Part shown: positions 28,482 through 60,992 of the stretch, piece after piece
How the letters are laid out: every line of letters starts with the position of its first letter
How positions within the stretch are numbered: position 1 is the first letter of the stretch
Source: Pyropia yezoensis
Lineage: Eukaryota; Rhodophyta; Bangiophyceae; Bangiales; Bangiaceae
NCBI GenBank assembly: GCA_009829735.1
Contig: CM020618.1
Location: 198,655 to 262,654, forward strand
Length of the DNA: 64,000 bases
Direction of reading: 5' to 3'
The notes under the pieces: generated by a model
The model's input: the letters and a program-made list of their open reading frames with translations, nothing else
The model's database searches: none
What the model was told of the DNA's origin: nothing
Position numbers and translations under genes: made by a program

Positions 28482-28981
28482 NNNNNNNNNNNNNNNNNNN
28501 NNNNNNNNNNNNNNNNNNNNNNNNNNNNNNNNNNNNNNNNNNNNNNNNNNNNNNNNNNNNNNNNNNNNNNNNNNNNNNNNNNNNNNNNNNNNNNNNNNNN
28601 NNNNNNNNNNNNNNNNNNNNNNNNNNNNNNNNNNNNNNNNNNNNNNNNNNNNNNNNNNNNNNNNNNNNNNNNNNNNNNNNNNNNNNNNNNNNNNNNNNNN
28701 NNNNNNNNNNNNNNNNNNNNNNNNNNNNNNNNNNNNNNNNNNNNNNNNNNNNNNNNNNNNNNNNNNNNNNNNNNNNNNNNNNNNNNNNNNNNNNNNNNNN
28801 NNNNNNNNNNNNNNNNNNNNNNNNNNNNNNNNNNNNNNNNNNNNNNNNNNNNNNNNNNNNNNNNNNNNNNNNNNNNNNNNNNNNNNNNNNNNNNNNNNNN
28901 NNNNNNNNNNNNNNNNNNNNNNNNNNNNNNNNNNNNNNNNNNNNNNNNNNNNNNNNNNNNNNNNNNNNNNNNNNNNNNNNN
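28482..28981. other. Assembly gap (500 N)
   Basis: A placeholder gap directly beside the methyltransferase stop codon. It may hide the left boundary of the large element. Confidence 0.99.
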
Positions 28982-29010
28982 AAAAATGCCGAGACCACCT
29001 GCGCCCCCGT

Positions 29011-31010
29011 TTACAGAGGGGGGGCGACGGCAACGCCGAGGCTGGCAGCTTCGGCACACCTCATCGCGTCAAGGTCCTCCACCATGAGACGGCACCGCAG
29101 CTCCAGCGGCCAGCGGTCGACGGCAACACCTCGGAGAGCCAAAATCTGAGGCATTGACACGCGCTCGCCGTCCGACACCATGCCGGCGTGCGGCACTGCC
29201 CACCTGGAGGCGAGCCAGGAAATGAGAACGTCGGGCAGAGCACAGTGTGCAGGCTGGCCGGCCGGGACCTGCATGTCGAGTTGGTACGCCACCGGCCGGG
29301 GGAGACTGGGAAACGGCGCCGTGTAGGACGACCCATACGCGTACGCCGACTGAGACAGGTATTGAATGCCTGACGCAATGTCCTCCCGCAAGGAAGCCTC
29401 CGCCAGAACCCGACAAGCCCGAACGATCCGGCCGTCGACATGCTCCGCCAGACCACCTTGCAGCACGGCGCTGACAAATGCGCGGAGGAGCCGTCCTCGA
29501 GAGGCAGCAATGCACGCCGCGTCAGAGTCACCCACAAGGGCCCGTCGATATTGGCCCGCGCGCATGGTCAGGGCCGCGACTGCAACGGATAGAGTACCAC
29601 AAAAGGGGTCCGCCACCAAGTCCAGCGGGTGGGAGAAGCGAGCGATCAACTCTTGCAGCAGCGCCAACCCCTTTTGCTCGGGTCTCAGGAAGCCGCCGGA
29701 CCGGGCCGAAGGATTTCGCAGCACCACTTCTGCTCGGGGAAGACTGCGAACATTGTTGACGATGTTGGTCGAGGCGGCGTAGTCGGACGCAACGTAGCCA
29801 AATCCCCGGTAAGACACCCGCGCATGCGCTTCACTGGGGGAGAGCCCACGGCGGGTGGCGTGCACAACAATCTCTGCCTTGCTCGTCAGCACCACAGAGC
29901 TGAACGTCTGACCAAAAGAAAAGGAATGAGGATCCTTGATCACGAGCAGGGGCACGCCGTCCACAATGAAAGCGGGCGACTGAGACTTGGGCGCGCCGGC
30001 AGCGGAACCCCCCCCATCCCTTGACCGCTTCGAGCCCCGCCGGGCGCCGTGTTCGCCTGCATCTTGCCAATCATCTTGGCATGCCCGCAGCGCATCCACC
30101 CACAAAGACCATTGCTGGAAGGAGCAAAAGATGAGGACATGGCCGCCTGGGCGAACAAGGTCGCGAAAGAGCCGCACAGAGAAAGTGTAGTCCTCTGCTC
30201 CCATGACATCGTACTCAGAGTGCTTGGCGTTCTGCTCCCGGCGTGTGTTGTACGGAGGGTCGGTCAGTACAAGCTGCACCTGTCCCACGATGCCCTTGTG
30301 CTCAGCTTCAGATGCACTGCCGCCCCGATGCGCCTCATGCGCTTTCAGGAAGTCTTTGTAGTCCCCGCTGTGCGTCCACACCACCTTGCTGAGAGCAGCG
30401 CTGACGACACCTTGCGCCTCCGCCACTGACAGGCCTTCCTGAGCAGAACGCACCAAAGAAGACGACGCAGCAGCCTTCTTAGACGATGGGGTAGGAGAGG
30501 TAGACCGAGCCAGAGGAGAACCGACAGGGGCAGCCCCGCCCGCTGCGGCCGTGCGACGACCGACACTCCCGCCGCTGCCGCCAGCTGCAGACAGCATAAC
30601 ACCGCCCAGAGCAGGAAGGAAGCCCCGACGACGGGCGGGGATCAGAGGGTGCACCGATGCCAAAGGCACAACAGGACCTGCAGCAGCAAGCACGCTCCCT
30701 GCGTACGCAGTGTCAATGCCACTCCCCGGTTGCCGCCTATATCCAACCCCTTCCGCTGACGAACACGACGCATACAGATCCGATATGACCGCCGATAATG
30801 AGATTCTTCGAAGCGGCGAGTCGGGCACAACCTGACCCGCCGGGGAGGTACCGCCGCTACTCCACGTGCGGTCGCTCCTGCTGCCGCCGCCACTCGACGA
30901 ACTGCTGCCGCTGCCGCTGCTGCGCGTCCTGCTGCTGTCACCGAGAACGCTTTGCCAGTCCTCTACTGTTTCCCCTTGGCTTGAACGAGTGCCGCCCCCC
31001 CCAGAGCTCC

Positions 31011-31046
<36 letters not shown>

Positions 31047-32658
31047 TGCTGCGGTCGTCACTTTTGCTGCTGTCGCTTCCATCGCTGACCTCGCTGCTGC
31101 TGCTGCTGTCCCAAAACGGGAGCTTCCCCCCGTCCTCAGCAGCGTCCTCGGGCGGAGCGAGGGCATTCAGGCCAGCAGAAATAGCCGCCAGAATCGGGGG
31201 AACTCCATCTGCACAGCACAAAGAGCGCGGCAAGCGGTAGTGCGCCAAAGACAGACACGCAGCTTGCGGATGTGCTGGGAGCGCACTTCCGCTACTGCTT
31301 CCAGCAACTCGACCGCGCCGCCGCGTGTTGGCGTGCAGAGACTTCAACCGGTACCGCGGCTCTGTCGAAGGGTGCAAGGCAAAGCCCAAGATGTCGACAC
31401 GAGATGTGACAGTCTCCAAGTGGGATAGAAAAAGCTTGGACGCCAGACGAAGCTGCTCATCCGCAACTGGCGAACGCCCCAGCGCTTCTGGATCCACACT
31501 GCCGCGAACAGCACTCGGAACAAGGCCGTGAAAAAGATCTCGACTCTGAGCAAGGGGCGCCAGCCGCCCAATACCCCCCTCCACGAGCGCCTCGTACTTG
31601 AGACGCGAAGGAGACCACAGAATGTACGGACCCAGCATCTCCTCCGCAGACGAGAAGCGCGCGCGACGCGCAAGCGCGTCCCAAGCCCGCACTAGACTCC
31701 GAACAGCACGTGCAACAACCTCCGAGATGGCGTGCGCACGTACGAGCGCCGAAGAAGTACCCCCCGACGTGTCCTGGACTCCTTGATGGCGCGGTGGCTG
31801 CCTACTTTGTCGACCATGCAGCTCCCGCAGCTGCTCTTGGCGCGCCGTCGTGTGCTGCATCGGCGTCCCGCCGGTCAGCTCAATCACGCGAGATAGCCAA
31901 AGCACCTGCTCAAAGGGCGTGAGGGAAGAAGCACGATGCCGCCTTGCCCCGACGCGCCGACGCGCCGAACGATGCACGGAAGGTAGAGCGGGTGCCAGCA
32001 CGTCGCCAAGCCATGATTGCCCGACATCAGCGTCGAACCGCATGCCAGACATGGACTCCATGGCACAGATCACAGCGGTCGCACCCGGAGAGCGCCCGGT
32101 CAGCGGTAAGCAGCCACGGCTACGGCTGACGGCATCTTCGAGATCCGCAAGTTGTTGCCACCGACCGGTCCAAGCGAGCAGCAGCTGCCAAACGCGATAG
32201 TCGGCCGCCGGCGGAGGCCACGAGAGGTACGCATAGCCTGCATCTACCACATCGGTTGATAAAACGCCAGCAACGCGCTTTGCAACCTCTTCCACGTCTC
32301 GCGAACGGTAGTGCATGAGCGCGCAGACGGCTGCCGATAAATCGGCCACGAAGGGGAGCTCCAGCAACGCGACGTCATCATCGGGTTCGCCGCCAGAGGC
32401 AGCCGCATCGCGAGCCCAAGCGCACACCGCATCCCAAGAGCAACGCACAGCCCCAGCACGCTGACCGACCGAACCCACTGCACGACCCGTCTGCAGCAAA
32501 GTCGACAGGTACGCGTCACGTACGTCACCAACAGCGAACAACAAGGAAACCTGCAGCTCGACCCCAGACTCCACATCGTTCGGAGACAAGCTGAACCGCC
32601 TCGCGCACGCTGCCACTGCCTGCACGGCCCGAGACGTGCGATCCGACGGAGAAGCCAT
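29011..32658 (-). CDS. Large beta-class DNA amino-methyltransferase (N6-adenine or N4-cytosine)
   Basis: A 1,215-residue protein expected to transfer methyl from S-adenosylmethionine to the exocyclic amine of adenine or cytosine in DNA. The catalytic motif IV is VLTDPPYNTRR (Asp about residue 800). It is followed by LFRDLVRPGGHVLIFCSFQQ, and the AdoMet-binding motif I LVADPFCGTLSVAVAAL comes later (Asp about 1017). The order IV before I defines the beta class, common in bacterial restriction-modification and CcrM-type enzymes and rare in eukaryotes. The N-terminal 530 residues are unrecognised and helix-rich. Residues 530-650 are Ser/Asp/Arg-rich low complexity. I chose the ATG at 32658 (MASPSDRTSRAV); the frame is open to 32775 but that extension is hydrophobic and Cys-rich without a better signal. 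The frame is intact. It lies downstream of the ParB-dioxygenase gene with an intergenic gap of about 1.6 kb. Confidence 0.85.
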
Positions 32659-33654
32659 GATGGATGTACAAAGCGACAGGAACAGACAACACCACAAGAA
32701 GCACCGGGAATCAAAGATCCACTGCAGCCGCCGCGGGCACATACAACGCGGCAGAAAAAGCCAGAGCGCGCACAAACAACACTGTAAACATCCGACCGCG
32801 GTGAGCGATACACCACGACCGATTTCACGTCATAAAAACAAGCCAGTTCAACGCCCAAAGTACTTGCAACTATGAACCTACCATTACGGAACTCAATATG
32901 CGTTCTAAAATGGAATGCAACTTGTGAGTCGACAAAAAAGTCCAAAAACGAAGTGGTGGAGTGAACAAGATAAGACAACCAGGCTTCCTCGGCTGAGAAA
33001 CCAACACAATAAGGCATCCATTCCGGGGATGACAGGGACTCTTTGCAAACAACTGAATCGCAGGTCAGGCAGATGGCGCAAATCACTGAGAAGTAGGTGA
33101 TTATAGTACTATAAACACTCACATTCAAGGAATTGACAAGCGTGATAAATACAAAACACAAATTCGAAACACTTTACAAGGTCCATATGGAGTCTGACTG
33201 TCTGTTCCCCGCCAATCCTAGCCGACCAATCGCTTTTGGTACTGCAAGCACTCACTGGGTCAGCCAAGGGGACATCCGGACATTTGACATGATGGCGATG
33301 GTGCGGTCAGAGGTAAACGATTGCTGTGAGGGAACGAAGGTGCGTGTGTTGGTTGTCCTGTAGACCTTCATCCGCTCGCAGGCAGACTAAACGTAGGCTG
33401 ATGAAACCGCGCGATGTGTGCACACAACGCCAAGTACACTCACGCAGCCAACCGCCAAACCAAACAAGAATCATGTCAAGCAAATCGAAAGCAAAGATCA
33501 CAAATACCAGAAAACCAAGTACACTCATAGCGTTGTGAGCTACAAGATTTTGCACAAGAGGCGTATGGGTAACATAACCACCTTAAGAAACACGCGTGTA
33601 GGCGTCGTCGTGGGTTTGATCCCCAGTGGATTCTCTTTCGCCCGTCCCGTGCCT
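32659..33654. other. Intergenic inside the large element
   Basis: AT-richer than the flanking genes and holding no gene. It contains one degenerate copy of the palindrome at about 33097-33122 and presumably the promoter of the methyltransferase gene. Confidence 0.5.
33097..33122. repeat. Degenerate copy of the 26-bp palindrome
   Basis: The core TTATAGTACTATAA and the right half (ATAAACACTC) match the copies at 33714-34066. The left half has diverged. The following ACTCAC-TTCAAG bases also match the flank of the array copies. Confidence 0.8.
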
Positions 33655-34066
33655 TGATCCGCGTGGCTCACGTGGATCTGAGCACCTTGGTCGTCTACAG
33701 GCCTGACCCAAGTGAGTGTTTATAGTACTATAAACACTCACTCAAGATTGCCACGTGTTGCCTTGATCCACGTGGCTCACGTGGATCTCAGCACCTTGGT
33801 CGTTTACAGGCCTGACCCAAGTGAGTGTTTATAGTACTATAAACACTCACTCAAGATTGCCACGTGTTGCCTTGATCCACGTGGCTCACGTGGATCTCAG
33901 CACCTTGGTCGTCTACAGGCCTGACCCAGGTGAGTGTTTATAGTACTATAAACACTCACTCAAGACTGCCACGTGTTGCCTTGATCCACGTGGCTCACGT
34001 GGATCTGAGCACCTCGGTCGTCTACAGGCCTTACCCAAGTGAGTGTTTATAGTACTATAAACACTG
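33655..34066. repeat. 109-bp tandem array, two palindromes per unit
   Basis: Four units repeat with an exact 109-bp period. Each has a 23-bp inverted repeat (GATCCACGTG-GCT-CACGTGGATC; copies at 33765, 33874, 33983, and a slightly diverged one at 33656) and a 26-bp perfect palindrome with half-site GAGTGTTTATAGT and its reverse complement (33714-33739, 33823-33848, 33932-33957; the copy at 34041-34066 differs in the last base). The array lies just downstream of the ParB-dioxygenase gene. Confidence 0.95.
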
Positions 34067-34261
34067 ACTTGGTCGACCTGGGTGATGTCGTTCCATTTGG
34101 TATGTCTGACTCGCTACGTCCAAGTGCATTTTGGTCAATGCAACAGTCACCGACAGAGCGCTCGAGAATCCTGCAACAATGCCATCATCATGCAAAGCAG
34201 ATACGCATACATGCCCAAGGCTCATTGTGCCCCACAATCTCTTACTCGCGCATCTTCCTCT

Positions 34262-37200
34262 TCACTCTTCGATCACCATTCCTCCAGAATTCACTCTAGT
34301 TGACCCGGCAGCCTCCGTGGCTTCGCCACCACCCCGCGCCGGCGGAAGAAAGGTAAAGACGTCGGGCGCCGGATAGATGGCGTCCTGAATGGTGTCACCA
34401 ACTTTCCGCACGTACATGTGTGCACGGATGTTGCGCCGGTAGTAACTACGAACCTTCTTGACGCCGCAGAGACCATGCCGGTAGTGATCGTCGACATCAG
34501 CAGCACCAGCGTGCACCAGGTCACCACGGACAATCAGGACCGAGTAGGGAGGAATTTGCAGCAGACGAGCCGGAGGCGGAACCGACTTGCCCGCCATGCC
34601 ATCACGAAGTCGACAAGCATGGTTATGGCTGTCCGGCCACACCCAAAGTGGAAACCCGTCTTCCGCCGACGCCATGACAAAGTACGACGGTGCCGCATGA
34701 GATCCTGCATCCCGGCTGGACGAAGCAGGTGATTGGTTTTCAAACGACGCCGCAAGATGCTGCGCCGCCAAGTGCTCAGGAACTTGTGTCAGCGGAGGAG
34801 TACCTGCCCCAACTTCAACAGGACGAAGCTCTTCCGCCACATCAGGTCCGTACGCGCCGTCAGGAATAGGAGTGTCGGTGTGCGGCCGCTGACGTTCAGC
34901 GCCCTTGGTCGTCACAAGAAGACGGGACCCGGTGCGAGGGATGCACATAGGACCAATGCGCCGGTTGTTGCGCTGGATCCCGCCATGAAGAGTCCTCCAA
35001 ACAATCGCAGCAAGGAAGAGGTCGACGTTCTGCTTACTCATGTATACCTCGCGACTGGCGCGTTGCAGCTCGCTGGCGAGGTACTGCGCCGTTGTCATCA
35101 GCCGCCCTTCGCCACGGCTTGCAATCGCGGGATCGTCGACGGCCACCCTGTTGTGGATGAAGCAAAACTCCGTGGCGTCGAGGACGTCGGCCTCATGACG
35201 TTCCCGCAAGGTGGCCTCGTCTGGTAAAGCCTGGTGGAAGTGACGCAGGTATGAACGAAGGTGAAACCGAGTCCGCGATGGTGTCCCCGTCCGCAGCGCG
35301 TTCGTGTAGATCGTGTAGCCCCGCTCGTGAAGTTCCTCGTGCCCTACCGTGTACAGCAGCCGCGCGTGGACCTCCGCCGCCGTCACGTGGCGCTCAATCT
35401 CGGACGGGGCGTCGTTAATATTCCACATGTAGGGCTGCTCCGAAGCGATGCCGTGAGTGACCTCCCAGCGCCCATAAAGCGTGACGTGCTGGTCAATGGC
35501 AATGAAGTCCTCGGTGTCGACAACGCCACGAGCCGGGTGGTCATCTGGTAGAAGCTCGGCAAAGCGAGGCAGGTCTGACGTCTTCCGGGTCGCCATTCTC
35601 TGCCGGTCGGCTCGCGACATCTGCGCGGGCGTGTCTGGCATGTCGGGCGGCGGTTGCGGGAACGCATCGGCACCCGTGGAACCACCGTCCCCTTCCACTC
35701 CACGTGAGGATGGTGCATTCTCCGCAGAGCCCGCTGCTTTGTCACCGCCACCGCCGTCGGATGACCCTACCGCCCGCGACCGTTTGCTCGCCCCATCTGG
35801 ACAATCCGAGCCGCCATCAGGTGCCGGCCGCTTTGTGCCACCACCTTCCGTCGTGGGCGTCGTTTCCGCCCGACCCGTGTCGACGCGGGCGACCGCAGCA
35901 GCTGCTGGCATCGCCGACGGATGCCCCCCCCCAGGCGTTGTAGGCGCGGTGCCCGCCCGACACGGCTCTACAGGGGCGACGGCAGCAGCCGCTGTTGCGG
36001 GAGCCGGCGGTTGTCCTCCACCGGGCGTTGAGGGCGCCGTGGCCGCCCGACCTGGCTCGATAGAGCCGACGGCGGCGGCGGGTGTAGGCGTTGGCGGTTG
36101 TTCATGACCAGGCGTCATGCCCGCCGCCTCGCTCGTGGCGGGCTCGGGGGGCCGCTCTGCAGATGGCTGAGGACCTCCAGGAGCACCGCCAGTCGCCGAG
36201 TTCGTACTGGTTGGCGGGCGCAAAGGAGAAATCTCGTCTCGAGCGTCACCGCTGACTCCACCTGGGCCTTCCTCTCCGCCACCACCCACCGAGGGTCCGG
36301 CGGGCACGATTACGGCGTCATGTTCTTTCTGGACCGCCGCGGGATCGACGTTGTCGGAAGGCCCTCTTGGACCGGCTTGCTCGGCTGCCGGGACAGCAGA
36401 AGAAGGCGGGCCGCCATCACTCCCAGCTTGGCCCGACGGTGAAGACACCTTTCCAGGGCCGCCCGCCCCATCGTCGGCACCCTTTTTGCCACCGCTACCA
36501 CCGTCGGCGTCGACAGCGTCACCTCCGCTTCGGGTTGCGGCACCACCAGTTCCGGCGTCAACTTGATTGGGTGCCGCAGCGTCGCCTTCGGTGTTGCCGC
36601 CTGTGCCACTCACATTGACGCCGCCACCGCCGGCGAGGGCACGACGTGCGGGCAACGGCGTCGGTGGGGTGGGATCTTGCGGCATCGTCGGCCGCACCCA
36701 TTCCGCGATCAAGGCACACCAGTCACCCCAGTGCTTCTGGAAAAATCCATGGGCGCGGGCCGCCTCGACGCCAACAGACTCGGTGGCGCCGCGCTTCACG
36801 CCGAGGGCCTTGGCTTTCTTGCCCTTGCGCTGGCCTTTGCCCTTGCCTGCAGGCCGACCCGATGACTGGCGCTTGCCCTTGCTCTTACGCCCGCCCGGGT
36901 CCGCCTCCTCCTCGTCTTCATCCAGCTCCTCTTGTTCGTCGTCGTCCGAGGCCTCTACGTCGGATGCGGACTCGACCTGAGTGCCCCCACCTTCTACGTC
37001 GTTCACGTCGTACTCCATAAAGAGGGCAGTCAGGTGCGCTGTCATTGTCTCGCCGCCAAGGAAGGGGTGCACAAGGCCCCACATGTTGGCCACATCAAAG
37101 TCCGGGCCAACCTCGTAGGAGCCATGGACAAGAAAGTCACGAGCACCTTCATCCTCCTGCGACGACTCAGAGTCGCTGGCTATGCTGCCCGTCTCCTTGT

Positions 37201-39325
37201 TCATAGCGCTCATGAGCCGCAGGATCTTGACTTGATACCCCGCCGGCTGCTTCTGCTGCAACTTGTCAATCCTCTTCTGCCGGGGGGCGTTGCGCGCTGT
37301 GATGCGCCGCTCACGACGACGTGCGTCCCGCTCGGCCGGGGACTCGATGTTGTCAATGGCGCGCTTGCGCTCAATCACTTTTTCAACGTACTGCTTGCGC
37401 GCCGCCAGAGTGCTCGCCACCTGCTGCGCCGACGCGCCTTCCAGCTGACGCTTGGCCACCCGCACTGCGACACGCAGGTGGTTGAGGAAGACCAAGAGGA
37501 CAGTAAAGAACATACTGTCGCACCCTTGCTTGAGCCGGTTCGGCGGCACACCAGCAGGCTTGGCCACCCCCGTCCACAACCACGCAATCTCGAGCATCTT
37601 GTCGCGCACAATGTCTGCATCCTCACGGGGCGTTCCAGGACAAAAGATGAACGCCGGGGAGACCAGCCCCTCGCAGGCCAGGGAGCTTTCCCCCGCTTGA
37701 GGCGCAGGCCGGTCCTTTTTCTTCTTGATCGCCCGCACCATCATTCGGTCGGCTTCCAGGATGGTCAGGTAGCGCATCAGGCGCTTCTGGGTGAGCGGAC
37801 TCACCGCCAGCATGATACCGATCGTCACGAACCGCTTGAGGGACTGCAGCTGCACAGGGACACCCTTGTTGGAGCTCGGCACGTTGCCGCTCTTGAGCAG
37901 CTGCTCTGCCGTTTTTCCCACGTTCACATTGCCCGGCGCCAGCTGCAAGTTCTGCGTCCTCGCCATGGCCCCCATGATGTGGGTGGACCACTGCAGCTGA
38001 TGGCCGGTGGACATAGGCAGAGGCGTGAGGGCCCCCGCATTGGCGGCTCCTGCCTCGAGGAGAATCTCCACGTCTGTCATGGGCTTGCCGTCCTTAAGCT
38101 CCTTGACTGCCATTTCCACAGCGGAAGCCGGCGCGCTGCCAAACTGGTCTTTGAGCTTACGCTCAAGGATGATGCACAGCGCCGTCAGCCGGTGGGCCCC
38201 GTCGACAAGGATGTACCGCCCAGGCTTCTTTGGGTTGGGCGTCACTTGAATGACGCCATTCGTAGGGATGTAGCCAAAGCTGGTAAACTTTCGAATGAAG
38301 TTCTTGACCCACTTGTCGGAGATCTCGCGCGCCGTGTTCTCGAGGAAGTCGACCTTGTCCAGCTGGATGACCTCGGAGCGAACCTTGTACAGCTGTGACT
38401 TGGGCTTCAGCGTCATCTTGGGGACGATCTTGTCATCGTTTGGGAGCTCTCGAAACGCATCGCTGCCAGCGTCCACGTTGCCTTCATTAATGTCGCTAAC
38501 GAACGTGGCGTCGATGGTGTCGACGTTATCGCCGCCCGAGCGCTGCCTCGAAACATCGCCTTCCTCTTCCGCTTCGTCAATGTCCGACGCTAAGCGACCC
38601 GCCTCGGCCGAGGGTTCCGATTCCGCAAGACGTACCGCCCGGCGCTTGGCATGTTGGTCCTCCGTTGGGCCACCGCCGGATCGCGCAGCCCGAGTGTGAG
38701 TACGACGCGTCACCCGGTCAAGGTCACCGGATGATGCCGAAGAACTCTCGTTGGCGCGGTCCGCTCGACCGTCAGCAGAACCGGCGGCACTGCGGCGCGG
38801 CTCCCGGTCAGCAGAAGATGAAGAGCCTCCTCCCGTGCCGGAGGAGCCCCGCACAGGTCCAATGGCACCAGCGATTGACGCCTCACCGCCACGATCGCCT
38901 CCGCGGCCGCCTCCCACGCGGCCGCCGCCACGGCCACCACCACCGCCACGACCGCCACGTCCAGGGCGCTGGCTACCGTCCACAGCCCCAGCAGCTTGGT
39001 CCTCACCACCGCTTGAAACCCCGCCGCCGCCACGGTCTCCGCCGCGGCCTTTAGAACCCGCAGAGGTCAGGCCGACACCCTGCATTACTGCCTCGGCAGC
39101 GCCACCGCCACCGCCCACGGCAGCCTCACCAACAGCTGAAGGGGCGTTGCCGCCATGGCCGCGATCATCGTCACCAGGAGACGAAGCACGGGCGGCAACA
39201 ATATCCCCAAAGCTTCCACCCGCGCCCACTTCCGCTGCGACCGCCGCCCCGCGGTCCTGACCACGCCCACGACCGCCGCGACCGCGCGTTCCACGACCGG
39301 ATCCGGTCGAACGCTTGCGCGCCAT
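34262..39325 (-). CDS. ParB/sulfiredoxin-like domain fused to 2-oxoglutarate/Fe(II) dioxygenase-like domain
   Basis: A 1,687-residue protein. Residues 1-160 are RGG/GRG repeats (RNA/DNA-binding type). The ParB/Srx-like fold is signalled by GRYILVDGAHRLTALCII (Asp about 375) within about residues 340-480. Residues 785-812 are strongly acidic (DDDEQEELDEDEEEADP), followed by a Lys-rich stretch and a long Gly/Pro/Ala-rich linker (about 900-1250). The C-terminal domain has RPHTDTPIPDGAYG (His 1482, Asp 1484), FPLWVWPDSHNHACR and VLIVRGDLVHAGAADVDDHY (His 1605), the HxD...H iron triad of a double-stranded beta-helix dioxygenase, with Arg residues after it that could bind 2-oxoglutarate. A DNA-base oxidising role like TET/JBP enzymes is an inference from its methyltransferase neighbour. 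A phytanoyl-CoA-dioxygenase-like fold acting on another substrate is the alternative. ATG at 39325 chosen (MARKRSTGSGRG). Frame intact. Confidence 0.75.
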   Translation of the reverse strand: MARKRSTGSGRGTRGRGGRGRGQDRGAAVAAEVGAGGSFGDIVAARASSPGDDDRGHGGNAPSAVGEAAVGGGGGAAEAVMQGVGLTSAGSKGRGGDRGGGGVSSGGEDQAAGAVDGSQRPGRGGRGGGGGRGGGRVGGGRGGDRGGEASIAGAIGPVRGSSGTGGGSSSSADREPRRSAAGSADGRADRANESSSASSGDLDRVTRRTHTRAARSGGGPTEDQHAKRRAVRLAESEPSAEAGRLASDIDEAEEEGDVSRQRSGGDNVDTIDATFVSDINEGNVDAGSDAFRELPNDDKIVPKMTLKPKSQLYKVRSEVIQLDKVDFLENTAREISDKWVKNFIRKFTSFGYIPTNGVIQVTPNPKKPGRYILVDGAHRLTALCIILERKLKDQFGSAPASAVEMAVKELKDGKPMTDVEILLEAGAANAGALTPLPMSTGHQLQWSTHIMGAMARTQNLQLAPGNVNVGKTAEQLLKSGNVPSSNKGVPVQLQSLKRFVTIGIMLAVSPLTQKRLMRYLTILEADRMMVRAIKKKKDRPAPQAGESSLACEGLVSPAFIFCPGTPREDADIVRDKMLEIAWLWTGVAKPAGVPPNRLKQGCDSMFFTVLLVFLNHLRVAVRVAKRQLEGASAQQVASTLAARKQYVEKVIERKRAIDNIESPAERDARRRERRITARNAPRQKRIDKLQQKQPAGYQVKILRLMSAMNKETGSIASDSESSQEDEGARDFLVHGSYEVGPDFDVANMWGLVHPFLGGETMTAHLTALFMEYDVNDVEGGGTQVESASDVEASDDDEQEELDEDEEEADPGGRKSKGKRQSSGRPAGKGKGQRKGKKAKALGVKRGATESVGVEAARAHGFFQKHWGDWCALIAEWVRPTMPQDPTPPTPLPARRALAGGGGVNVSGTGGNTEGDAAAPNQVDAGTGGAATRSGGDAVDADGGSGGKKGADDGAGGPGKVSSPSGQAGSDGGPPSSAVPAAEQAGPRGPSDNVDPAAVQKEHDAVIVPAGPSVGGGGEEGPGGVSGDARDEISPLRPPTSTNSATGGAPGGPQPSAERPPEPATSEAAGMTPGHEQPPTPTPAAAVGSIEPGRAATAPSTPGGGQPPAPATAAAAVAPVEPCRAGTAPTTPGGGHPSAMPAAAAVARVDTGRAETTPTTEGGGTKRPAPDGGSDCPDGASKRSRAVGSSDGGGGDKAAGSAENAPSSRGVEGDGGSTGADAFPQPPPDMPDTPAQMSRADRQRMATRKTSDLPRFAELLPDDHPARGVVDTEDFIAIDQHVTLYGRWEVTHGIASEQPYMWNINDAPSEIERHVTAAEVHARLLYTVGHEELHERGYTIYTNALRTGTPSRTRFHLRSYLRHFHQALPDEATLRERHEADVLDATEFCFIHNRVAVDDPAIASRGEGRLMTTAQYLASELQRASREVYMSKQNVDLFLAAIVWRTLHGGIQRNNRRIGPMCIPRTGSRLLVTTKGAERQRPHTDTPIPDGAYGPDVAEELRPVEVGAGTPPLTQVPEHLAAQHLAASFENQSPASSSRDAGSHAAPSYFVMASAEDGFPLWVWPDSHNHACRLRDGMAGKSVPPPARLLQIPPYSVLIVRGDLVHAGAADVDDHYRHGLCGVKKVRSYYRRNIRAHMYVRKVGDTIQDAIYPAPDVFTFLPPARGGGEATEAAGSTRVNSGGMVIEE

Positions 39326-39564
39326 CGGCGCAGAGAGAGTCTGCCGCGCGCGCGCGGCGCGAATTCGGCAAGAGCAGCCGCGATCTCCCACCAAACCGGC
39401 TCCCCAGCGTTCGCCGCCCACCCTGCAGCCAGCCTGGCTCGCGCAAAAAAGGGCACAACCACTCGGGCGCTGCGCCCTATCGCGGACGCCAGCCACCTCC
39501 ACGCCCAACTACAGCAGGCCTCGTCACCGCAAAGTACGCCCAAAGGCACCCACCACCAACACGC

Positions 39565-40055
39565 CCGGCGGACCCACACGGCTGCCTGCGATGCCACCTG
39601 CAACCCCACAGCAGTACCACCCACGCCCCCGCCGAGCTGCACCGCTGCACTCGGCCCCGCGAGGCAGACGGCCAAGCACCACCCTCAGGCCGCAGACGCA
39701 GGCACGGACCCACCGCCACCTGGCGGGCGTCAGAGCCACCTACGCCCAAACACACACCTCTCACCCACACGCACAACAGACACACGGCTGCCAGCGATGC
39801 CCCCAGGCACCGCACAGCAGCACCACACAGGCCCCCGCCGAGCTGCACCGCTGCACTCGGCCCCGCGAGGCAGACGGCCAAGCACCACCCTGAGGCCGCA
39901 GACGCAAGCACGGACCCACCGCCACCTGGCGGGCGTCAGAGCCACCTACGCCCAAACACACAGCTCTCACCCACACGAGCAACAGACGCACGGCTGCCAG
40001 CGATGCCCCCAGGCACCGCTCAGCAGCACCACTCACGCCCGCGCCGCGAGCGAAC
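39565..40055. repeat. 206-bp minisatellite, about 2.3 copies
   Basis: The sequence starting GCCGAGCTGCACCGCTGCAC at 39631 recurs at 39837, a period of 206 bp. Partial copies occur on both sides (from about 39565 and to about 40055). It lies upstream of the ParB-dioxygenase start. Confidence 0.85.
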
Positions 40056-40695
40056 ACACAGAAGCGCACACACCAGCCGCACAGAGATCGCGGGGTGAAA
40101 CAGCTGCAGAGGGGACAAACGCATGCACGACAGCATGCAACGCAGACTCCAAGACGGCAGAGCACGGGGGCACCACGCGACTCATCGCCGAAGGAAAAAG
40201 AGTCAAGGCAGTTTCCAGTACTGTAAACGTTCCGTCGGCGACTGACCCCCCCCAAGAAGATTTGTTCGTAATTTCATACAATCGAAACCATTCACAAGGA
40301 ACAAATGGACGACACAGCATACCAAATGGCGCGTACAGCCACATACCACACCCCTCCTCACGCGGCTCTGGATAATCGCAGCTCAGAGAGGCCGCCTCAA
40401 TGTCGTCACGAGTATGCCCTGGGCAGAAAAAGGAGCGTTCCGCTGACCAAAGTCTGGAAATTTGCTGCGCATTTGACACTTGAGACCTGAATACTACCAA
40501 TTCGAAATCTTGGTACAACAAGTACGATTAAATATATTTTCGAACTGAATCGACTGTCAGGACTCGGACGCCGACCCGAGTGAGCGTTTATAGTACTATA
40601 AACACTCACTTGAGATGCCCATCCTGGGTCCACCTGTGTGCATGCCCCAGGTACCGATGATACATTGCGGCGACATTCTTTAACGTGCACGAACA
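40056..40695. other. Intergenic inside the large element
   Basis: No gene is seen. It contains a half-like palindrome (TTCCAGTACTGTAAAC, about 40213-40228) and the degenerate repeat copy at 40582-40607. Composition is AT-richer than the neighbouring genes. Confidence 0.5.
40582..40607. repeat. 26-bp palindrome, one mismatch, second intergenic gap
   Basis: This is the same sequence as the array palindromes except for a C in the left half (GAGCGTTTATAGT). The flanks GACCC-GAGTG before and CACTTGAGATGCC after also resemble the 109-bp unit, so a longer unit was shared. Confidence 0.9.
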
Positions 40696-43600
40696 CTAGA
40701 GAGGCAACACGCCCAAAGCCTTTGCAAGCACTGGCGCGAAGAGCACAACATTTGGCAACGTCGTGCCAGACGTCAACCATTGAGCAAACGCTCTTGAAGA
40801 CACACCGTCAAGAGAGTCGCCCCAGTCGAGGATGTTCCGTGGAGGGAGACGTACGCAGCGCCTGACCGCGTCTTCTGCCCCCAGCGCCTCCTCTGGCCAC
40901 GTCCAAGCAGTATGGCATCGCTGCTGAAGAGCAACAGAAAAGAGCGGCCGTTGCATTGCCATGCCCGTACGAGCACGCGCCATTTGAAGCATTGCCACGC
41001 GGATGGTGAACGCCCATGGGCACTTGAGATTGCCGCGTTGTCCTTGAGCGTGTAGACCGAAAACCCCAACAGATGGGATGACCACACTCGGTGGGAGCCC
41101 ACAACCCGTACACGATCCTTCAGGCTCGCCTTCCTCTGGGTACACAGGAATCCACGGTGGTGGCACGTTCCTGCACTCGGCACTGGGCGTAGAGCACACG
41201 TTTTCCAATGGCCGCTCCGCCGATGCCGCCGACACGTACCGAGACGTCCGCAAGCACGAGCAGCAAATGTTCTTGAAACAGGCGGCGGGCGTATGCCGCC
41301 GGGCAGGAACCGAAGGAACGCGAAGAGCGCAGCATGCTGCACAAGGCCGAACACGATCCGCCTGGCGGCTGTCCATAATCGCCGTAGCGGCCCTCCTACC
41401 AAACTCCAACGCTTGCACGGTAGCATCCCGTACTTGCAAATTGGCAACATGCAGTGTGCCCAGGGTGCCCGGAGCAACAGCCGCCACGGACGGCCTAGTC
41501 GCCAAAGCCGGTGCACCAAGACTGGGGCGGGGCCCGTTGCTGTGGCGGGCACCTATGCCAACGACGGGTGGTCGTTCAACGACGAGGCGCCCCTGCACCA
41601 GTTGAGTCTGCACCAACGCACTATGCTCCGGCCCAGCCATCGTTCCGCCTGCCGACGTAGCTCGCCCACTGCTGTGCGCCAGTGTCACAGCCTGCCGACC
41701 ACCGCTCGACTCAGGCGGAGGCGCCTGCCCACGCCCGGTCGTCGCCGACCATGACGCAGCACCCATTCGTTGACGCACTTGGCGGGGAGGGGTTTGAAGC
41801 TGTCCCGAGTACGTTAACCCCCGCTTCTCTGGGGTTGGGGCTGCCTCTTGTACGCGCCACAAAGAGGATTCTGGCAGACTTCCGGCAGCGTCGGCAGCAG
41901 GTGAAAGGGGGGAAGAAGTGACATGAGATGGTGGAACGGTCCGATAAGCCGCAGCTCCCGGAGGAGACGCGTGCGAGTTTCGGGAGCGTTGTACGACTTT
42001 CGCTACGGTCGCAGTAGCCAAGCCGGCCAGAGGCCTGTTGCACGCGTGTGTACACACGTCACAGAGCGCAAAGCCGCCTTGAATGCAAGACACGGCGTCC
42101 GCTGCTTGCACACCGTCCATCACCTCGTCGAGGTACACGCGGCGACATGGCAACGGGCCGCTATCCACCTCCAGGGCCGCCCAGCGGTCAAAGTCACCCA
42201 GCTGATCCAGCCCAATGACGGCCTCTCGGGCGTCGTGCTCGTGCAGCATGTCAGAGTACCCGTCGGGGTTCCACACAACGGCAGTGCCCCCTTCGCGGGG
42301 GCTCCGCGAGAGACGCCCTGACGCTTGTACCAGCGTCATGAGGTTTCGAGCCCCAAGGAAGAAGCCCCAACTCATGTTGGTAAAGTCAGTGCCCGTTGAA
42401 ATACCAGGGGAACCGACAACGACAATGACGCCGACACCGCCGCGCTTGCGTTGAAGCTCAGCCACAATCCACGGCGGTGACCCACTGCCTGCCGCATCGC
42501 CAGGCCCCAAGGAACCGGCCTCGGCTCGGCGACTGTCCCTCCCACCTCTGAAAGTCGACACGGACGACGCGGCTTGGACAACGTGGACAGTAGAAATGTC
42601 GCCATTGACAATCTCAGGACGTGCAGGCGCTTGCCGCTCAAGGGACTCGTGGGCTGCTCCACGAGCTGTCGCTGCCGCGACGGAGCCAACGTCGTTCTCC
42701 GCGATGCGTGCCTCCGCACTTGATCCAGGCGCGCCACCAACCACCAACTGGGCGCCGTCCACTCGAGAATGAAAGCGCAACACGTCCACATCCTGCAACT
42801 CGGGACCATCGGCCATTGCAAGTGCAATGGAGAGCGCGTCAGAGATGCCCTCCACATCCAAGACAGTCTCGAGAAATACGCCCACAACGGCACACCGGCT
42901 GTGCAGGTCCCCGCTGGGCGCACGCATGGTGCTTATCTGCTCGAGGACGCGGTCAGCAACGGCCATGTGGAGGGGCGATACCTCATAGGGCGTCGAAGAC
43001 GTCCCTCCGCCACGCTTTCTAAAGGGCACCGGAGCCGGCTCAACACAGTAGCGCAGGTTGGCCCGCCGCGTTGACGGAGGTCGTAGAATTGCCACAGGGC
43101 GGGTGGGAGTCCAACCGGTGGCGGCAAGCAGCGGCTGAACCCACCGCACAGGAGCGGTGGCGGTCAGGAGTATGAGAGGACACGGCAGGGTGGCCAATAC
43201 GTCCTTGACAAACACCAAAAGGTGCCGAAACGAGCCCCACAGACCGAGAAGGTGCACCTCATCAATCACCACTCGCCCCAACCGACCTTGCGCGTCGAGC
43301 CCGCGGATGAGAGCCACAAACTGTGCTCGGTTACGCACAATGACGGCGGCATCGGCCACCACGACCGCCACGTCTGGCGCCAAGCGCTGCGCCCATGACC
43401 CGGCGCGGACGGGCATGCGGGCGGCAGCGTCGAGGATTGTGGCGCTGACCGCTCGCGTGGTTGTCAAGACAATCGTCACGGTGGGACACCACAAGGAAGC
43501 CCGTCGGGAAAAGGCAACTGCGGCTGCCGCCCCGCGGCTACCAATCGAGGACGCGGTGGCACCACCAGCACCAGCTCCTGCACGACCGCAAAAGTCAGAG

Positions 43601-46600
43601 CTTCCGCCGTTGAAATGGTCTGCTGCCCCTACCGACCGCCGGTGCTGCTCGTACTGATACAGCTCGTACTGCTGCTTGGCGGCTTCGTGCTGGTGCTCGG
43701 CTTGTACAGCAGCGTTTGCTGCCGCTGCGGCCTCAATGTACGCGACGAGCAGAAAGGTGGCACTCTTGCCGCCCCCCGTCGGAAGAACCGTCAGCTGCGT
43801 CACAGCGTCACGGGCGCACAATGTACGAACTGTCGCTAGGCGCTGCGTGGGGGACTTGAAGCCACCAGGCCCGTATACCTGCCTGGCTGCAGCATCCACG
43901 GCAGCCTCGGCTACCGACAAGGACATACGGAATGCGCGGCAGCCCAACGTAGGGGCCGAAGCCACAGCACAGGCGGGTGCGACGGCCAGTGTGGCGGCAC
44001 TCGATACTGCGCCGCCAACGCCACCTGCTGGGACGGCACCACCCCCGTCTGCTGTGCCAGATGCTCCACCAAGGGATGACGGGAGATGGCCATTGTCAGT
44101 GGCGGCGGCGGCGGAGGCGTGTTGGGCTGCGCGGCCCAATGGTGGGGGCGGTGGCCTGAATACCGGCGACAGTCCAGAATCCTTTGACGGATGAAGCGGG
44201 TGTCGCAGACCGTCCTGATAATGGCGTGACTCGACGCCCATAGAGGTGTGCCACCACGAGCTAGCTCGACGAAACCAGAAAACGCTTGCCGCCGTCAGCT
44301 CATTGACCGCCAGGTCCTCCAGGCCAGCATACCGCTGCGTGGCGGTTGTGGATGTGTGGCCTGCCTGAGCGTCGAGCACTCTCCCAATGTCGGCGACAAC
44401 GCCATCCGTGCCGCCTCCTGGCCCGTCCGCACCAATGTCGTGGCTCAGGATGTCGTAGCCGGTTGCCATCTTGGTTATGCCTGCGAGAAACTGTCGCAAG
44501 ACTCGGACGCCCACATACGAGCCCGACTGCTCCCGAAGACCGTGCAGCAAGCCCGACTCTAGCGCCTTGTTCAGCACATAGGGGGACAGCTGCACACCAC
44601 GGGCGTCACGAAAGAGGAGAGCCCGGTCCACCTCCTCCGCGTGACCGCAGGCACTGCTCACGACGCCCCTGACGGCGGCGGCGGATGCGCCGCCAAGCCC
44701 GCCCAGGCTGTCGCCGTTGTTAGAGACTCGGGTGGCGCGAGACACGTAGGCTTGCAGGGGGTCCAGAAACACGACGACCAGCAAAATAAGGGAGGAAGTC
44801 TTGGCGGCCATCCAGCGAAGTACGGGGCGGCCCCTGCCTTCAGCACGGGCCTGACCCTTGCTGTACGTCAGCACCGTGAATACGCTCCCAGCGTGGACAA
44901 AAAGGCTTCTACGGGCACGCGCGGTAGAGGCGACCACCTTGAGCGCCGCGTCCTCGGTTTGACGGCCCGGCGAGCCGCCGGCGACGTGCATGGCAGCCCA
45001 CAATAGGGCGCGCAGCCGCTCAGCCTTTGCTTCCCAGCGCGCAATGGCGCCGCGCGCCACCTCTGCGGGCGGCGGCGCGGTGGCGCCGGAGCTGGCTGCA
45101 GGACCCTGCACGGGCCGCACCGGGCAGGCAGCCGACTCGAGAGCGCCAGATGCCACAAAGTGCGACAGCCACCGCCGTACAAGCTGCCGGTTTTGGGGCA
45201 GCTGAAGAAAGCCTACGCCCGGCGCGTGCGCCGATGGGCGGTCCACCAGGCGGATGGCGTCCGCCCAAAAGCCACTCCCCGCAGGGTCGTACCCGCCAGT
45301 GAGCTCCCGGAAGAGGGAAAAGATATCGGCGTGAAGGCTCTCTAGGCGGCGGCCGAGCTCCCGGGTGCTCATGTGCAGCTGCGCTCCCAACAGGGTGCCG
45401 CAAACGGGGCGCCCTTGAGCCGGTGACCCCACCGTGACAGGCGGCGCATGCGACGGGTCGTCACACGGGAGAAAGACGGGCGCCATTGTTTCGCTCCGCC
45501 CAATGGCCTCGGCCATGCCCGACAGGTGGACAACGTAGGCGGCCGCCGTGACCCGGGAGGGGTCAGACTTGCGCGCAATCGCGGCAAACAATTCGTCAGA
45601 CGACGCCTCGCTATGTGCCATGTAGTAGAGGGTGTTGGTGATCTTGATGGAGAAGAGCAACGCAGCAGTCAGGCGCTGCGCGTTGCCGGCGTCGGCGTAC
45701 CGGGCGGGGTCGGTGCGGCCAAGACCGAGGGAGCCGTACACCACCGCGAGAAAAGGCATCACCAGCTCGACGTCCGACTGGCCTTTGCAGGCTGGGTCGC
45801 CCCGCCGGGCACGGGGGTCGTACTCCTCGTGAAAGAGGGCGAGCAAAAGGGCCTGAAAGAGAGGCTCCGTGTCCGCGGCGGGGGAGGCCAAAGGGGAACC
45901 CAGCAAAGGCCCTTGGGCACCTTGACCTCTGTTACCGCCGCCAGCGGAGGCCACCTCTTGAGCGTCGAGCGCCACGGTGAGAGCGTCAGCGGCCGAGATA
46001 GATGAGGCCGATAACGTGGGGAGACGCCGGTCGTCTGCGACAATGTCTGCGGCGCAGCGGTGGCCGAGGCGCACAATGTCCATGACCACCAAGAGCAGGA
46101 TGGACGTGTCCCGAACGTACCGCTGAACAGTGCCGGGCCGGAGGTTGACGTGGAAGGCTCGGCCGCTGTCGTCGCCGGCCGACGACAGACGCATTTTACG
46201 CGACAGCACCGAGGCGCTGCGGCTACGAAGAAACGCAATGGCAGCGTCCGTCGCACGCTGGATGCCGGCGCGGAGCGCCACGTACATGGGACGGTCGCAA
46301 TGTTGACGACCCTCTGGGCCTTCCACATCGAGCAGCGAAAAGTGGTCCGCCACGGCAGCGGCGGTCCAGCCAAGGTCCTTGAGAGAGACGTCGTACCGCT
46401 CCATGTGCAGGAGGCCCCCCGCCTCGGTGTCATTGGTTGCCTCGGATGAGGGCAGCCGTTCCAGCGGGGAGCCGAGAGTCGAAGACGCGCCAAGAAATGC
46501 ATCCAAACACACACGCTGGTTGACTGAGGGGGCGGCACCTGCGGTGTGTCGTCGACTCCAGAGGCGGCAGCGGCAGCGGCGGCGGCGTCGGCGGCGGCGT

Positions 46601-47677
46601 GGGGAGCAGGGGGCACGGGAGCGCCAAGGGCGGTGGGGAGCAGAGCACCTGCCGCGACTCGGACGTGCACCGCACCTGAGGCCGCTTGGGATGGCACCCC
46701 GCAAGAGACAGGGAAGAAGCACGTTTTGTTGCCCCGCTTGAGCGTCTGACCAGACACAATGTAAAAGCGCTTGTTGCCGCACGCGTCGGTAGGGTCACTC
46801 GCGGATGCAGGCGACGCAGAGGACGGCCGCGGAGTTCCCGACGCCCTGCGGGTAACCGTCTTGTGCACGCCCTGTGCGCTCGGCGCCATCGAGCGGCAGG
46901 TGTAGCACGCGTGGAGCCCCGTACAAATGGAAAGGGCAGGAACCGCTGGTAGGTGAGCGGCGGCGGGGCCAGCGGGCCAGGCACGGAGGGAGTAGCGCTC
47001 TCTGAGCCCAACTTGGCCGCCAGTCGGCTCGACAGCCAGGGCTGCACGCGCGGCGGCAATGCCCACCGTCTGAACACTGGCCAGGCGGGCGGCCACGCCG
47101 CTGTCCTCAGAACCAGTCGCCTGGGCGTCGGCGCAGCCCATCTTTTCCACAGCTGCCTTGTGCGGCCCACCGCGGACATGGTGACCAAGCAGGGCGCCGT
47201 CCAAAAACGTAGTGTCACACGGGATGCACACCACACTGTGGGCATCAGACCAAATGTAAAAAAAATTTCCGTGTCCGCGAGGTTGTAGGGGGCGTCGTAC
47301 GCAGTGGACGTAGGAACACGCGTCGAGCCATCCTCCTCAGCATCAACGGGAGCACGAATAGGGGCGGCCGCCGTGGCAGGGCCACCACCGTCGGCGGTCA
47401 GCGCGGAGACAGGGACAGGGTCAGTGGCGACCACATCGGCTGCAGCTGAGGCAGGGGCACGGACAGTGGCCAGAGCGCCGACAGAGGTGGCACCCAGAGG
47501 ACGCGCAAGAGAAAGGGCGACAGCCTGGGCTGAGACAGGCACAGCGCGCGGCGAGACAGGCGGAGGAGCGGAACGAAGTACAGCAACAGAAGAGGGGGCC
47601 GCCGCAGGGGCAGCCAGAGAAGCGACAGGCGAGCTGCCTTCCTCAGGGTCGGTGGAGTTCGGGACGGCTGTAGACAT
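40696..47677 (-). CDS. OrsD-like zinc finger, tyrosine-recombinase-like and RecQ-like helicase fusion protein
   Basis: About 2,300 residues in three frames. The ATG at 47677 (MSTAVPNSTDPEEG) opens a low-complexity N-terminus. A run of eight T on the coding strand (about 47262-47269) breaks the frame before CIPCDTTFLDGALLGHH (first C2H2 finger) and VPALSICTGLHACYTC (second), both typical of the OrsD family. The frame changes again near 46500. Then follow an alpha-helical region and the recombinase-like core: Arg in VGVRVLRQFLAG (about 44494), His in AGHTSTTATQRYAGL (44356-44358) and the Tyr of the same motif (44329-44331). The helicase has Walker A LPTGGGKS (about 43763-43790), DEVH (43251-43264), LTATAPVRW and motif VI QASGRLSRSPREGG (about 42300). 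A Cys-rich tail follows. Fungal subtelomeric RecQ/OrsD helicases have a related architecture. Expected role: excision and integration plus unwinding for the element. Confidence 0.75.
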
Positions 47678-48736
47678 GGTGGGTTGGTTGTGATGAAAGC
47701 TCCAGGGCGGGGGGACCGATGCCGGTTAAAGGGGTCGTCAAGGCCACTGTCGCGGAGGGTGCTTCACCGGAGGAGAAAGATACAGAGGGCGATACGCACA
47801 GCAGGAGATTAGGCAAGCGCCGAGAGGAAGACGTGTGAGAGACTGGGCTGTGGTGGAGTGGGGGTGGGGGTGGGCGGCAGGTTCCGTTTTTCGGGCGCGA
47901 AACTGGGCGCCCAATGTAACGGTCAACGGCGGTGCGCGACTGACCTGTAGGCGGGCACATCGCAGCTTCCGTTCGTGGCGCGAAACTGAGCCGTTCTGTC
48001 ACCGATAACGGCAGCTGATGCTTCGGAGGCGAGTTGATCCCGTTGGTCTTGTCGAGCTGCGCGCCGGCACGAGAGAGCCGTTTTTCTTGGAGGTCGAATG
48101 GGGGCCCCGCGCGGGAGGCGTTCACTCTTTCCGAGGATGAACGCCACCGGGCAGCCAATCAGATGTCTTGAATCGCAGCGTTCATCGTTGAAAAGGATGG
48201 GCGCGGCGGGCGTCCATCGTTGAAAAGGATGAACAGGGGTCTACTTGTCGTACTGTAAATAAGCCATGCGGTGCGGGACCAACTGCAGATGGGCGGGCGG
48301 GGGAAAAGGAGCTCCGAGGGAGGGACGTTACAGTGCGGTAAAGTGTGGGGCCGCGCGGGGCCGCCCTCACGAGGGGGTCTGGCAGTTGTGGGTGGCAAGG
48401 GCAGGGTGGAGAGGGGGGGAGGGGAATGAGGAGGTGAATGTGGGACGGGGTGGAGAATCAGGATGAGGTGGTCGGACTGGGGATCGGTGGTAGGGGAGTG
48501 CCGCGAAAGTGCGAGGGGGCGACTGAATCATGTACTATCGATGAGTGCGTGAGGCGAGCGGGAGGAAGGGAGGTCGGGGGGACAAGTTGGGGGTCGGAAA
48601 AGGCCAGGGTCTGCTAGAGTTTGGGTAGAGGCGTCTGTAAAGGGGGGGGAAGATAGTGGTAGAGGACTGGAGGGGTGCGTGTGGAGGAAGGGAAGTCAGG
48701 TTCTCGCGGGAGTGGGGGGGGAGCGGGGCAGCGGGG
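47678..48736. other. Upstream region of the recombinase-helicase gene, no gene recognised
   Basis: Contains E2F-like sites (separate entry) and a direct repeat: CATCGTTGAAAAGGATG occurs at 48183-48199 and 48215-48231. Beyond 48250 the sequence is G-rich on the plus strand and runs into the gap. The right border of the large element may be within it. Confidence 0.45.
47895..47985 (-). promoter_or_regulatory. Two E2F-consensus-like sites upstream of the recombinase-helicase gene
   Basis: TTTCGCGC occurs on the minus strand at 47895-47902 and 47978-47985, 218 and 301 bp upstream of the ATG, both within a shared context GGCGCGAAACTG on the plus strand. The E2F consensus TTTSSCGC drives S-phase genes in plants, algae and animals. 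S-phase expression is an inference. Confidence 0.4.
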
Positions 48737-49236
48737 NNNNNNNNNNNNNNNNNNNNNNNNNNNNNNNNNNNNNNNNNNNNNNNNNNNNNNNNNNNNNNNN
48801 NNNNNNNNNNNNNNNNNNNNNNNNNNNNNNNNNNNNNNNNNNNNNNNNNNNNNNNNNNNNNNNNNNNNNNNNNNNNNNNNNNNNNNNNNNNNNNNNNNNN
48901 NNNNNNNNNNNNNNNNNNNNNNNNNNNNNNNNNNNNNNNNNNNNNNNNNNNNNNNNNNNNNNNNNNNNNNNNNNNNNNNNNNNNNNNNNNNNNNNNNNNN
49001 NNNNNNNNNNNNNNNNNNNNNNNNNNNNNNNNNNNNNNNNNNNNNNNNNNNNNNNNNNNNNNNNNNNNNNNNNNNNNNNNNNNNNNNNNNNNNNNNNNNN
49101 NNNNNNNNNNNNNNNNNNNNNNNNNNNNNNNNNNNNNNNNNNNNNNNNNNNNNNNNNNNNNNNNNNNNNNNNNNNNNNNNNNNNNNNNNNNNNNNNNNNN
49201 NNNNNNNNNNNNNNNNNNNNNNNNNNNNNNNNNNNN
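48737..49236. other. Assembly gap (500 N)
   Basis: A placeholder gap that hides the left part of the older Gypsy copy and perhaps the right border of the large element. Confidence 0.99.
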
Positions 49237-50527: not shown

Positions 50528-50532
50528 GCAAC

Positions 50533-50895: not shown

Positions 50896-50915
50896 TTGGT
50901 GGAGCAGCAGGGGAC
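50896..50915 (+). promoter_or_regulatory. Primer-binding site
   Basis: TGGTGGAGCAGCAGGGGAC begins one base after the LTR. The TGG start and 18-19-nt length fit complementarity to a tRNA 3' end (…CUGCUCCACCA). I cannot name the tRNA by eye. It is not the common initiator-Met site TGGTATCAGAGC. Confidence 0.75.
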
Positions 50916-53304: not shown

Positions 53305-53312
53305 GAGGAAGG

Positions 53313-60990: not shown

Positions 60991-60992
60991 TA

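Follow-up and report, generated by a model that had tools for sequence, protein, structure and literature searches.

A gene trio in Pyropia yezoensis as the possible core of a large mobile element with its own DNA-marking enzymes

Proteins that join a ParB domain to a DNA methyltransferase have been reported in transposons of brown, green and red algae, and self-targeted marking by the transposons has been suggested for them (PMC12477816). Marking enzymes travel with transposons elsewhere too, TET/JBP enzymes in fungal transposons and SET domains in HarbingerS and MuDR elements (PMC12730594). Cryptons end in short (4- or 6-bp) direct repeats and have no terminal inverted repeats (TIRs) (PMC3212892). 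The locus described here lies in a 64,000-nucleotide stretch of the red alga Pyropia yezoensis (GCA_009829735.1, contig CM020618.1; hereafter the window). Three giant genes follow one another on its minus strand: a DNA methyltransferase gene (gene 1), a gene with a ParB-like domain and a dioxygenase-like C-terminus (gene 2) and a gene for a helicase with a recombinase-like region (gene 3). The original prediction, made from the DNA letters alone, took them for an undescribed large mobile element. In our estimate there is about an even chance that the trio forms the central part of a large non-DDE mobile element equipped with a self-marking kit.

The pairing of ParB with a methyltransferase is widespread, in algal transposons and in prokaryotes, and the earlier algal reports lower the novelty of that part of the locus (PMC12477816). 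No recombinase-helicase element with this gene set was found in the available text of the literature searched, with subscription papers mostly outside its scope. What looks new is the arrangement, with ParB-like and oxygenase-like regions on one gene and the methyltransferase on another, beside a recombinase-like helicase. In the Sola1-1_Ec32 element of Ectocarpus, ParB and methyltransferase form one accessory protein, whereas here a firm methyltransferase and a weakly matching ParB-like domain occupy two neighbouring genes (PMC12477816). Further differences are the dioxygenase-like region that shares a gene with the ParB-like domain, the SET domain of some methyltransferase relatives, and a recombinase-like helicase, in place of a Sola transposase, as the adjoining gene. 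Cryptons resemble the locus in a possible tyrosine recombinase and in that no DDE transposase is seen in the trio; they differ from it in that the trio has a fused RecQ-like helicase, giant size and extra marking genes (PMC3212892). The fungal TET/JBP transposons, HarbingerS and MuDR share with it the carriage of DNA- or histone-marking enzymes (PMC12730594); the dioxygenase-like region here is recognised by its motif. No mention of red algae was found in the available part of PMC12695648. Domains of the DDE/DDD transposases of KDZ, EnSpm and Sola elements had no match in the three genes, within the sequence between the assembly gaps. Harbinger and MuDR are likewise DDE-type. Starships, the giant tyrosine-recombinase elements of fungi, have a DUF3435 captain; Pfam scans of the trio (E 0.1) and of the recombinase piece (E 10) gave no DUF3435 match, and the Pfam filters drop most matches above about 0.1.

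The trio lies on a single 19,755-base contig, flanked by 500-N gaps (28482-28981 and 48737-49236). Three giant co-oriented genes had been predicted, and long minus-strand frames at 29014-32829 (1272 codons), 34265-39508 (1748) and 40699-46794 (2032) bear this out. The end points first proposed, 29011 and 47985, are not borders; the limits seen are the assembly gaps at 28982 and 48736, and because of them neither borders nor terminal repeats nor an empty site can be seen. Coordinates of all features are collected in Table 1.

For gene 1 a DNA methyltransferase had been predicted, and its sequence firmly points to one of the beta class and adenine type. It matches Pfam N6_N4_Mtase at 1.3e-10 and two NCBIfam adenine-methyltransferase models at 6.3e-05 and 0.0013 (CcrM), and a profile of eight relatives matches the adenine methyltransferase 5hek in the PDB at 1.8e-12, with weak matches to SETD8 chains (0.0045 to 0.0087). 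Gene 1 is 100% identical over 1213 amino acids (aa) to P0012 (I4F81_005271, Pyropia yezoensis). It is conserved in more distant relatives, which were sought among the 7994 candidates sharing most words with it (7988 for gene 3): identity is 33-42% for P0013 to P0016, whose alignments cover 92-95% of the searched region, and 30-31% over 59-60% for P0017 to P0019. Among P0013, P0016 and P0017, the relatives scanned, Pfam SET matches P0017 at 1.4e-06, above the cut-off, and P0013 at 0.0044, below it. A common C-terminal stretch aligns in P0013 to P0017 and is not present in P0018 and P0019. In the window, the frame of gene 1 is interrupted where seven C follow one another on the minus strand (29018-29024) and then enters the left gap, into which a SET domain of this copy would fall. 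P0017 (source label ena) is a methyltransferase and SET relative of window region 29014-30492; at 1104 aa it is as long as the ParB-methyltransferase protein described for Sola1-1 of Ectocarpus, and the two may be the same protein. P0017 gave no ParB match.

Some relatives of gene 1 combine a ParB or ParB-like domain with the methyltransferase in one chain. P0018 and P0019 begin with a DGAHR/DGSHR segment, and the N-terminus of P0018 matches the ParB-like phrog_1033 at 3.4e-5, which makes P0018 a single-chain ParB-like and methyltransferase relative; P0019 gave no ParB match at 0.01. When the methyltransferase alignment was compared with prokaryote genomes, five of seven loci encoded proteins with ParB_N and N6_N4_Mtase and two the methyltransferase alone; four of the five bacterial proteins passed the ParB_N cut-off, and L005 fell just below it.

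The ParB-like domain predicted for gene 2 is supported at a weak level. The N-terminal piece matches the ParB-like families phrog_1033 (5.5e-4) and phrog_3264 (0.0052), Pfam GmrSD_N (0.0064, below its cut-off) and NCBIfam SerK (0.018); its best PHROG match is phrog_18017, of unknown function (2.3e-4), and the PDB gave no relevant match for this piece. The weak ParB-like matches from three libraries fall on one segment of gene 2. A BLAST comparison of the same piece with P0018 was not significant (E 0.093), and it paired VDGAHRLTAL with LDGAHRVRAL. These data weakly suggest that gene 2 carries a ParB-like domain. At its C-terminus, the pattern HxD...GDLVHAG...R, which we take to be that of 2-oxoglutarate (2OG)-Fe(II) oxygenases, makes a 2OG-dioxygenase-like region plausible; the predicted DNA dioxygenase is thus carried by its motif but not by profile matches, and the narrower label TET/JBP-like found no support, with no Pfam match for the C-terminal piece at E 10. 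Relatives were sought with residues 1420-1730, a search that leaves the ParB region aside, and one was found, P0011 (98%), so that conservation says little here. By tblastn, gene 2 and P0011, which comes from another source, are 96.9% identical over 1483 aa.

Gene 3 is the candidate mobility gene. P0008 matches window frames -1, -3 and -2 in succession, and gene 3 thus extends to about 47767. A helicase had been predicted, and that gene 3 contains one of RecQ-like type is firmly indicated by matches to RecQ5 (5.2e-06), DEAD (1e-06) and DpdF (9.8e-09) and, in P0009, to DEAD (4.9e-10) and DpdF (1.1e-17). DpdF belongs, as its helicase, to a bacterial system of DNA modification by 7-deazaguanine. 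It gives the best NCBIfam score for the helicase core (41995-43947), at values far below the curated cut-off. Upstream of the helicase, residues R611, K646, R767, H813 and Y822 are invariant in four aligned sequences, P0003 (gene 3 of the window), P0008, P0009 and P0010. P0003 and P0008 are 85% identical, P0009 and P0010 91%, and the pairs are 38-40% identical to each other, so the four sequences amount in effect to two lineages. The pattern reads R-K-xxxR-H-9-Y, and the spacing of 9 between H and Y in P0003 is that of XerD and Cre. Fungal OrsD/recombinase/RecQ-type proteins have a zinc-finger region, a QAGH...Y recombinase-like region and a RecQ-like helicase, in the same order as gene 3. With this general description as part of the argument, a tyrosine recombinase in gene 3 appears probable. 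The original prediction had called the protein OrsD-type; the likeness is one of description, and the label was not upheld by Pfam, where OrsD matched neither whole P0009 at E 1 nor, at E 10, pieces from the N-termini of P0008, P0009 and the window protein. Gene 3 had no relative in the prokaryote genomes and no match among the plasmids.

The genes are accompanied by a palindrome. Its 22-bp core, GTGTTTATAGTACTATAAACAC, occurs six times in the window with up to three mismatches allowed (four copies exact, two with one mismatch), five times in the gap between genes 1 and 2 (33097-34064) and once between genes 2 and 3, and in none of 100 shuffled sequences. The repeat signature that had been claimed for both intergenic gaps is therefore real. 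The perfect palindromes measure 32, 32, 30, 24 and 18 bp, beside one imperfect copy, and four of the six copies lie inside a 109-bp tandem repeat. The further claim that the signature occurs nowhere else in the window is right for the sequence GTGTTTATAGTACTATAAACAC but not for long palindromes in tandem arrays as such: a 55-bp tandem repeat at 10716-10854 contains a 32-bp perfect palindrome twice (10743 and 10798), unrelated in sequence to GTGTTTATAGTACTATAAACAC, and palindromes per se are therefore not special to the trio. At 24898-24934 there is also a 37-bp inverted repeat, whose perfect 18-bp arms flank a one-base centre. The symmetry of the palindrome, in which arms of 11-13 bases and a core of 6-8 bases can be drawn, fits a candidate recombinase site, generally described as arms around a core (PMC3212892), and would equally fit a ParB site or a hairpin.

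A hairpin would be the form of the palindromes if they served 3'-end formation or transcription termination and had no tie to recombination or ParB binding, a proposal compatible with any reading of the trio. The palindromes lie 96 bases past the stop of gene 3 and about 200 past that of gene 2, and three of four palindrome pieces fold strongly as RNA (z -6.67, -3.42 and -3.63). However, such folding is expected of any perfect palindrome, a four-fold tandem array is atypical of a terminator, and so is the extra copy found 433 bases ahead of where gene 1 starts, which folds no better than shuffles (z 0.04). We regard this proposal as possible but rather unlikely.

Taken as a mobile element, the contig would be an internal part of a large red-algal element without a DDE transposase. 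Gene 3 would encode the mobility protein, in which a tyrosine recombinase cuts and joins DNA while covalently linked to it by the tyrosine, and the RecQ-like helicase fused to it opens or processes the element ends or an excision intermediate. Genes 2 and 1 would form a self-marking kit. The ParB-like protein would recognise the palindrome cluster within the element. The methyltransferase, most likely acting on adenine N6, would together with its SET domain mark both the DNA and the histones of the element, while the dioxygenase-like domain would edit or remove a base mark; through these marks the element may stay expressed or escape silencing by the host. The mobile status of the trio is suggested by its gene content, and the presence of ParB-methyltransferase proteins in algal transposons makes a mobile-element context more plausible. 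A broader proposal, which we hold only tentatively and think doubtful, is that the trio represents a new class of giant eukaryotic elements in which a tyrosine recombinase-RecQ fusion moves DNA and a ParB-like, palindrome-guided methyltransferase/SET and oxygenase set marks the element against host silencing.

Several observations weigh against the mobile-element interpretation. No integrase-type match for gene 3 was found in PHROGs, Pfam, NCBIfam or the PDB, and in its alignment the histidine of HxxR is replaced by R or Q; of the Crypton tetrad R-H-R-Y, both arginines, the later histidine and the tyrosine are invariant, with no profile support. An hhalign comparison of the gene 3 region with nine phage integrases scored 16.9, and three of 60 column shuffles scored higher (up to 17.75); controls gave 14.0 for the reversed alignment and 19.2, over 20 columns, for a gene 3 slice overlapping the recombinase region. 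In the top alignment the catalytic H and Y of lambda Int were indeed paired, but its score was not significant. The predicted tyrosine recombinase thus stands on a catalytic pattern invariant in two lineages and not on profile tests. AlphaFold models of the recombinase and dioxygenase regions were unusable (predicted local distance difference test, pLDDT, 31.0 and 28.7), the C-terminal piece of gene 2 had no match in the PDB, PHROGs, Pfam or NCBIfam, and P0016 had no Pfam SET match at E 1. Within the window, whose trio contig ends in gaps, neither borders, TIRs, target duplications nor (by tblastn) a second copy of the trio were seen. Clusters of 14, 11 and 9 members for P0008, P0009 and P0012 were not used as proof of multiple copies, one contig being listed for each.

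Finally, genes 1 and 3 carry frame breaks in this copy, one in gene 1 and two apparent ones in gene 3, each at or beside a homopolymer: 8 bases at 47258-47265 and 5 at 46528-46532 in gene 3, and 7 at 29018-29024 in gene 1. Assembly error and decay of this copy are both possible, because P0008 and P0009 read through as single frames over the parts of gene 3 concerned. The published assembly was built from PacBio RSII reads with SSPACE, BioNano and Hi-C scaffolding, and 48.0% of it is repeats (PMC7423979).

Of the other readings of the trio, the one that survives best is that a different giant transposon, such as an EnSpm, KDZ or Sola element with its DDE transposase past the gaps, carries the trio as accessory cargo, gene 3 being an accessory gene or a nested remnant. 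The ParB-methyltransferase accessory gene of the Ectocarpus Sola1 element and the red-algal giant EnSpm elements with several accessory genes are precedents (PMC12477816), and the contig does stop at gaps on both ends. Yet no DDE transposase Pfam match was found in the three genes, and gene 3 itself has a recombinase-like catalytic pattern. We judge this reading possible but unlikely.

Less probable still, and in our view improbable, is that these are three host genes, or a long-domesticated element, forming an immobile cluster for the marking of chromatin or DNA. The window holds no second copy, and the gene 2 frame is intact and has a relative from another source that is 97% identical along 1483 aa. 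On the other hand, giant same-strand genes, common palindromes, a recombinase-like region and a transposon-type ParB/methyltransferase pairing would be unusual for host genes, and the genome is 48% repeats (PMC7423979). That the trio is a piece of a Polinton-like virus or of an endogenous large DNA virus is very improbable: methyltransferase, helicase and recombinase genes do occur in such viruses, but the trio has no match to capsid, (protein-primed) polymerase or packaging domains, viral contigs scanned with P0003, P0016, P0009 and P0002 singly and with the gene 3 alignment yielded no relative, the methyltransferase alignment found four viral loci with frames of 247-312 codons, and no palindrome was found in a search of the viral contigs.

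The surroundings of the trio are rich in other repeats. A complete Ty3/gypsy-type long terminal repeat (LTR) retrotransposon at 50524-61355, on another contig than the trio, has 372-bp LTRs that are 99.2% identical, TG...CA ends and a 5-bp target duplication, GCAAC; the parts of a related, diverged copy on its two sides (49237-50528 and 61383-61682) are apparently the site of its insertion. Between its pol and 3' LTR, at 57960-60687, the minus strand has two long open frames of 420 and 528 codons, with no Pfam match at the cut-off. A 1298-bp inverted repeat (1-1280 and 62117-63410, 94.6% identical) may reach past the window start. It was considered as the termini of a 61-kb element and rejected, given four N runs between the arms, a third fragment at 12440-12567 and the unrelated complete LTR retrotransposon in the right part; it is probably a dispersed repeat.

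Table 1. Features of the gene trio and its contig (window coordinates; a dot marks features without strand)
Feature	Position	Strand	Basis or detail
Assembly contig with the whole gene trio	28982..48736	.	N runs on either side
Possible SET segment, first residues, shifted frame, cut by left assembly gap	28982..29024	-	aligns with start of C-terminal region of P0013 to P0017
Gene 1, predicted DNA methyltransferase protein	29014..32658	-	annotated start 32658, frame open to 32829; P0012 match and Pfam
N6_N4 methyltransferase core	29563..30279	-	DPPY 30244-30264; motif-I-like DPFCGT 29587-29610; PHROG DNA methyltransferase 2.8e-18
Single imperfect palindrome copy, upstream of gene 1	33092..33122	.	
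109-bp tandem repeat, 3.9 copies, with four 24-32-bp perfect palindromes and three GATCCACGTG-N3-CACGTGGATC inverted repeats	33650..34069	.	
Gene 2, ParB-like domain and 2OG-dioxygenase-like C-terminus	34265..39325	-	first ATG 39325, frame open to 39508, uninterrupted
2OG-dioxygenase-like motif HxD ... GDLVHAG ... R	34412..34885	-	motif only
ParB-like domain	38168..38404	-	VDGAHRLTAL 38177-38206; phrog_1033, phrog_3264, GmrSD_N
206-bp tandem repeat (2.3 copies), upstream of gene 2	39575..40046	.	repeat scan
Single palindrome copy, just 3' of gene 3 stop	40584..40605	.	
Gene 3, recombinase-like and helicase protein	40699..47767	-	three frames 40699-46530, 46524-47267, 47228-47767; tblastn of P0008, P0009
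Cysteine-rich C-terminal region of gene 3	40699..41343	-	sequence and its match in P0009
RecQ-like superfamily 2 (SF2) helicase core	42304..43785	-	GGGKS, DEVH, ASGRLSR
Tyrosine-recombinase-like catalytic region	44323..44973	-	R611, K646, R767, H813, Y822 (P0003 numbering)

To the suggestion that algal transposons mark themselves, this locus adds a candidate binding site, the 30-32-bp palindrome in a 109-bp array next to the genes, together with a dioxygenase-like partner and, through the relatives, a connection to SET, all in a farmed seaweed with a sequenced genome. The self-marking idea is therefore directly testable here, by methylation calling and by protein-DNA binding. If gene 3 is indeed a working recombinase-helicase, the trio would belong to an unusual kind of giant eukaryotic element.

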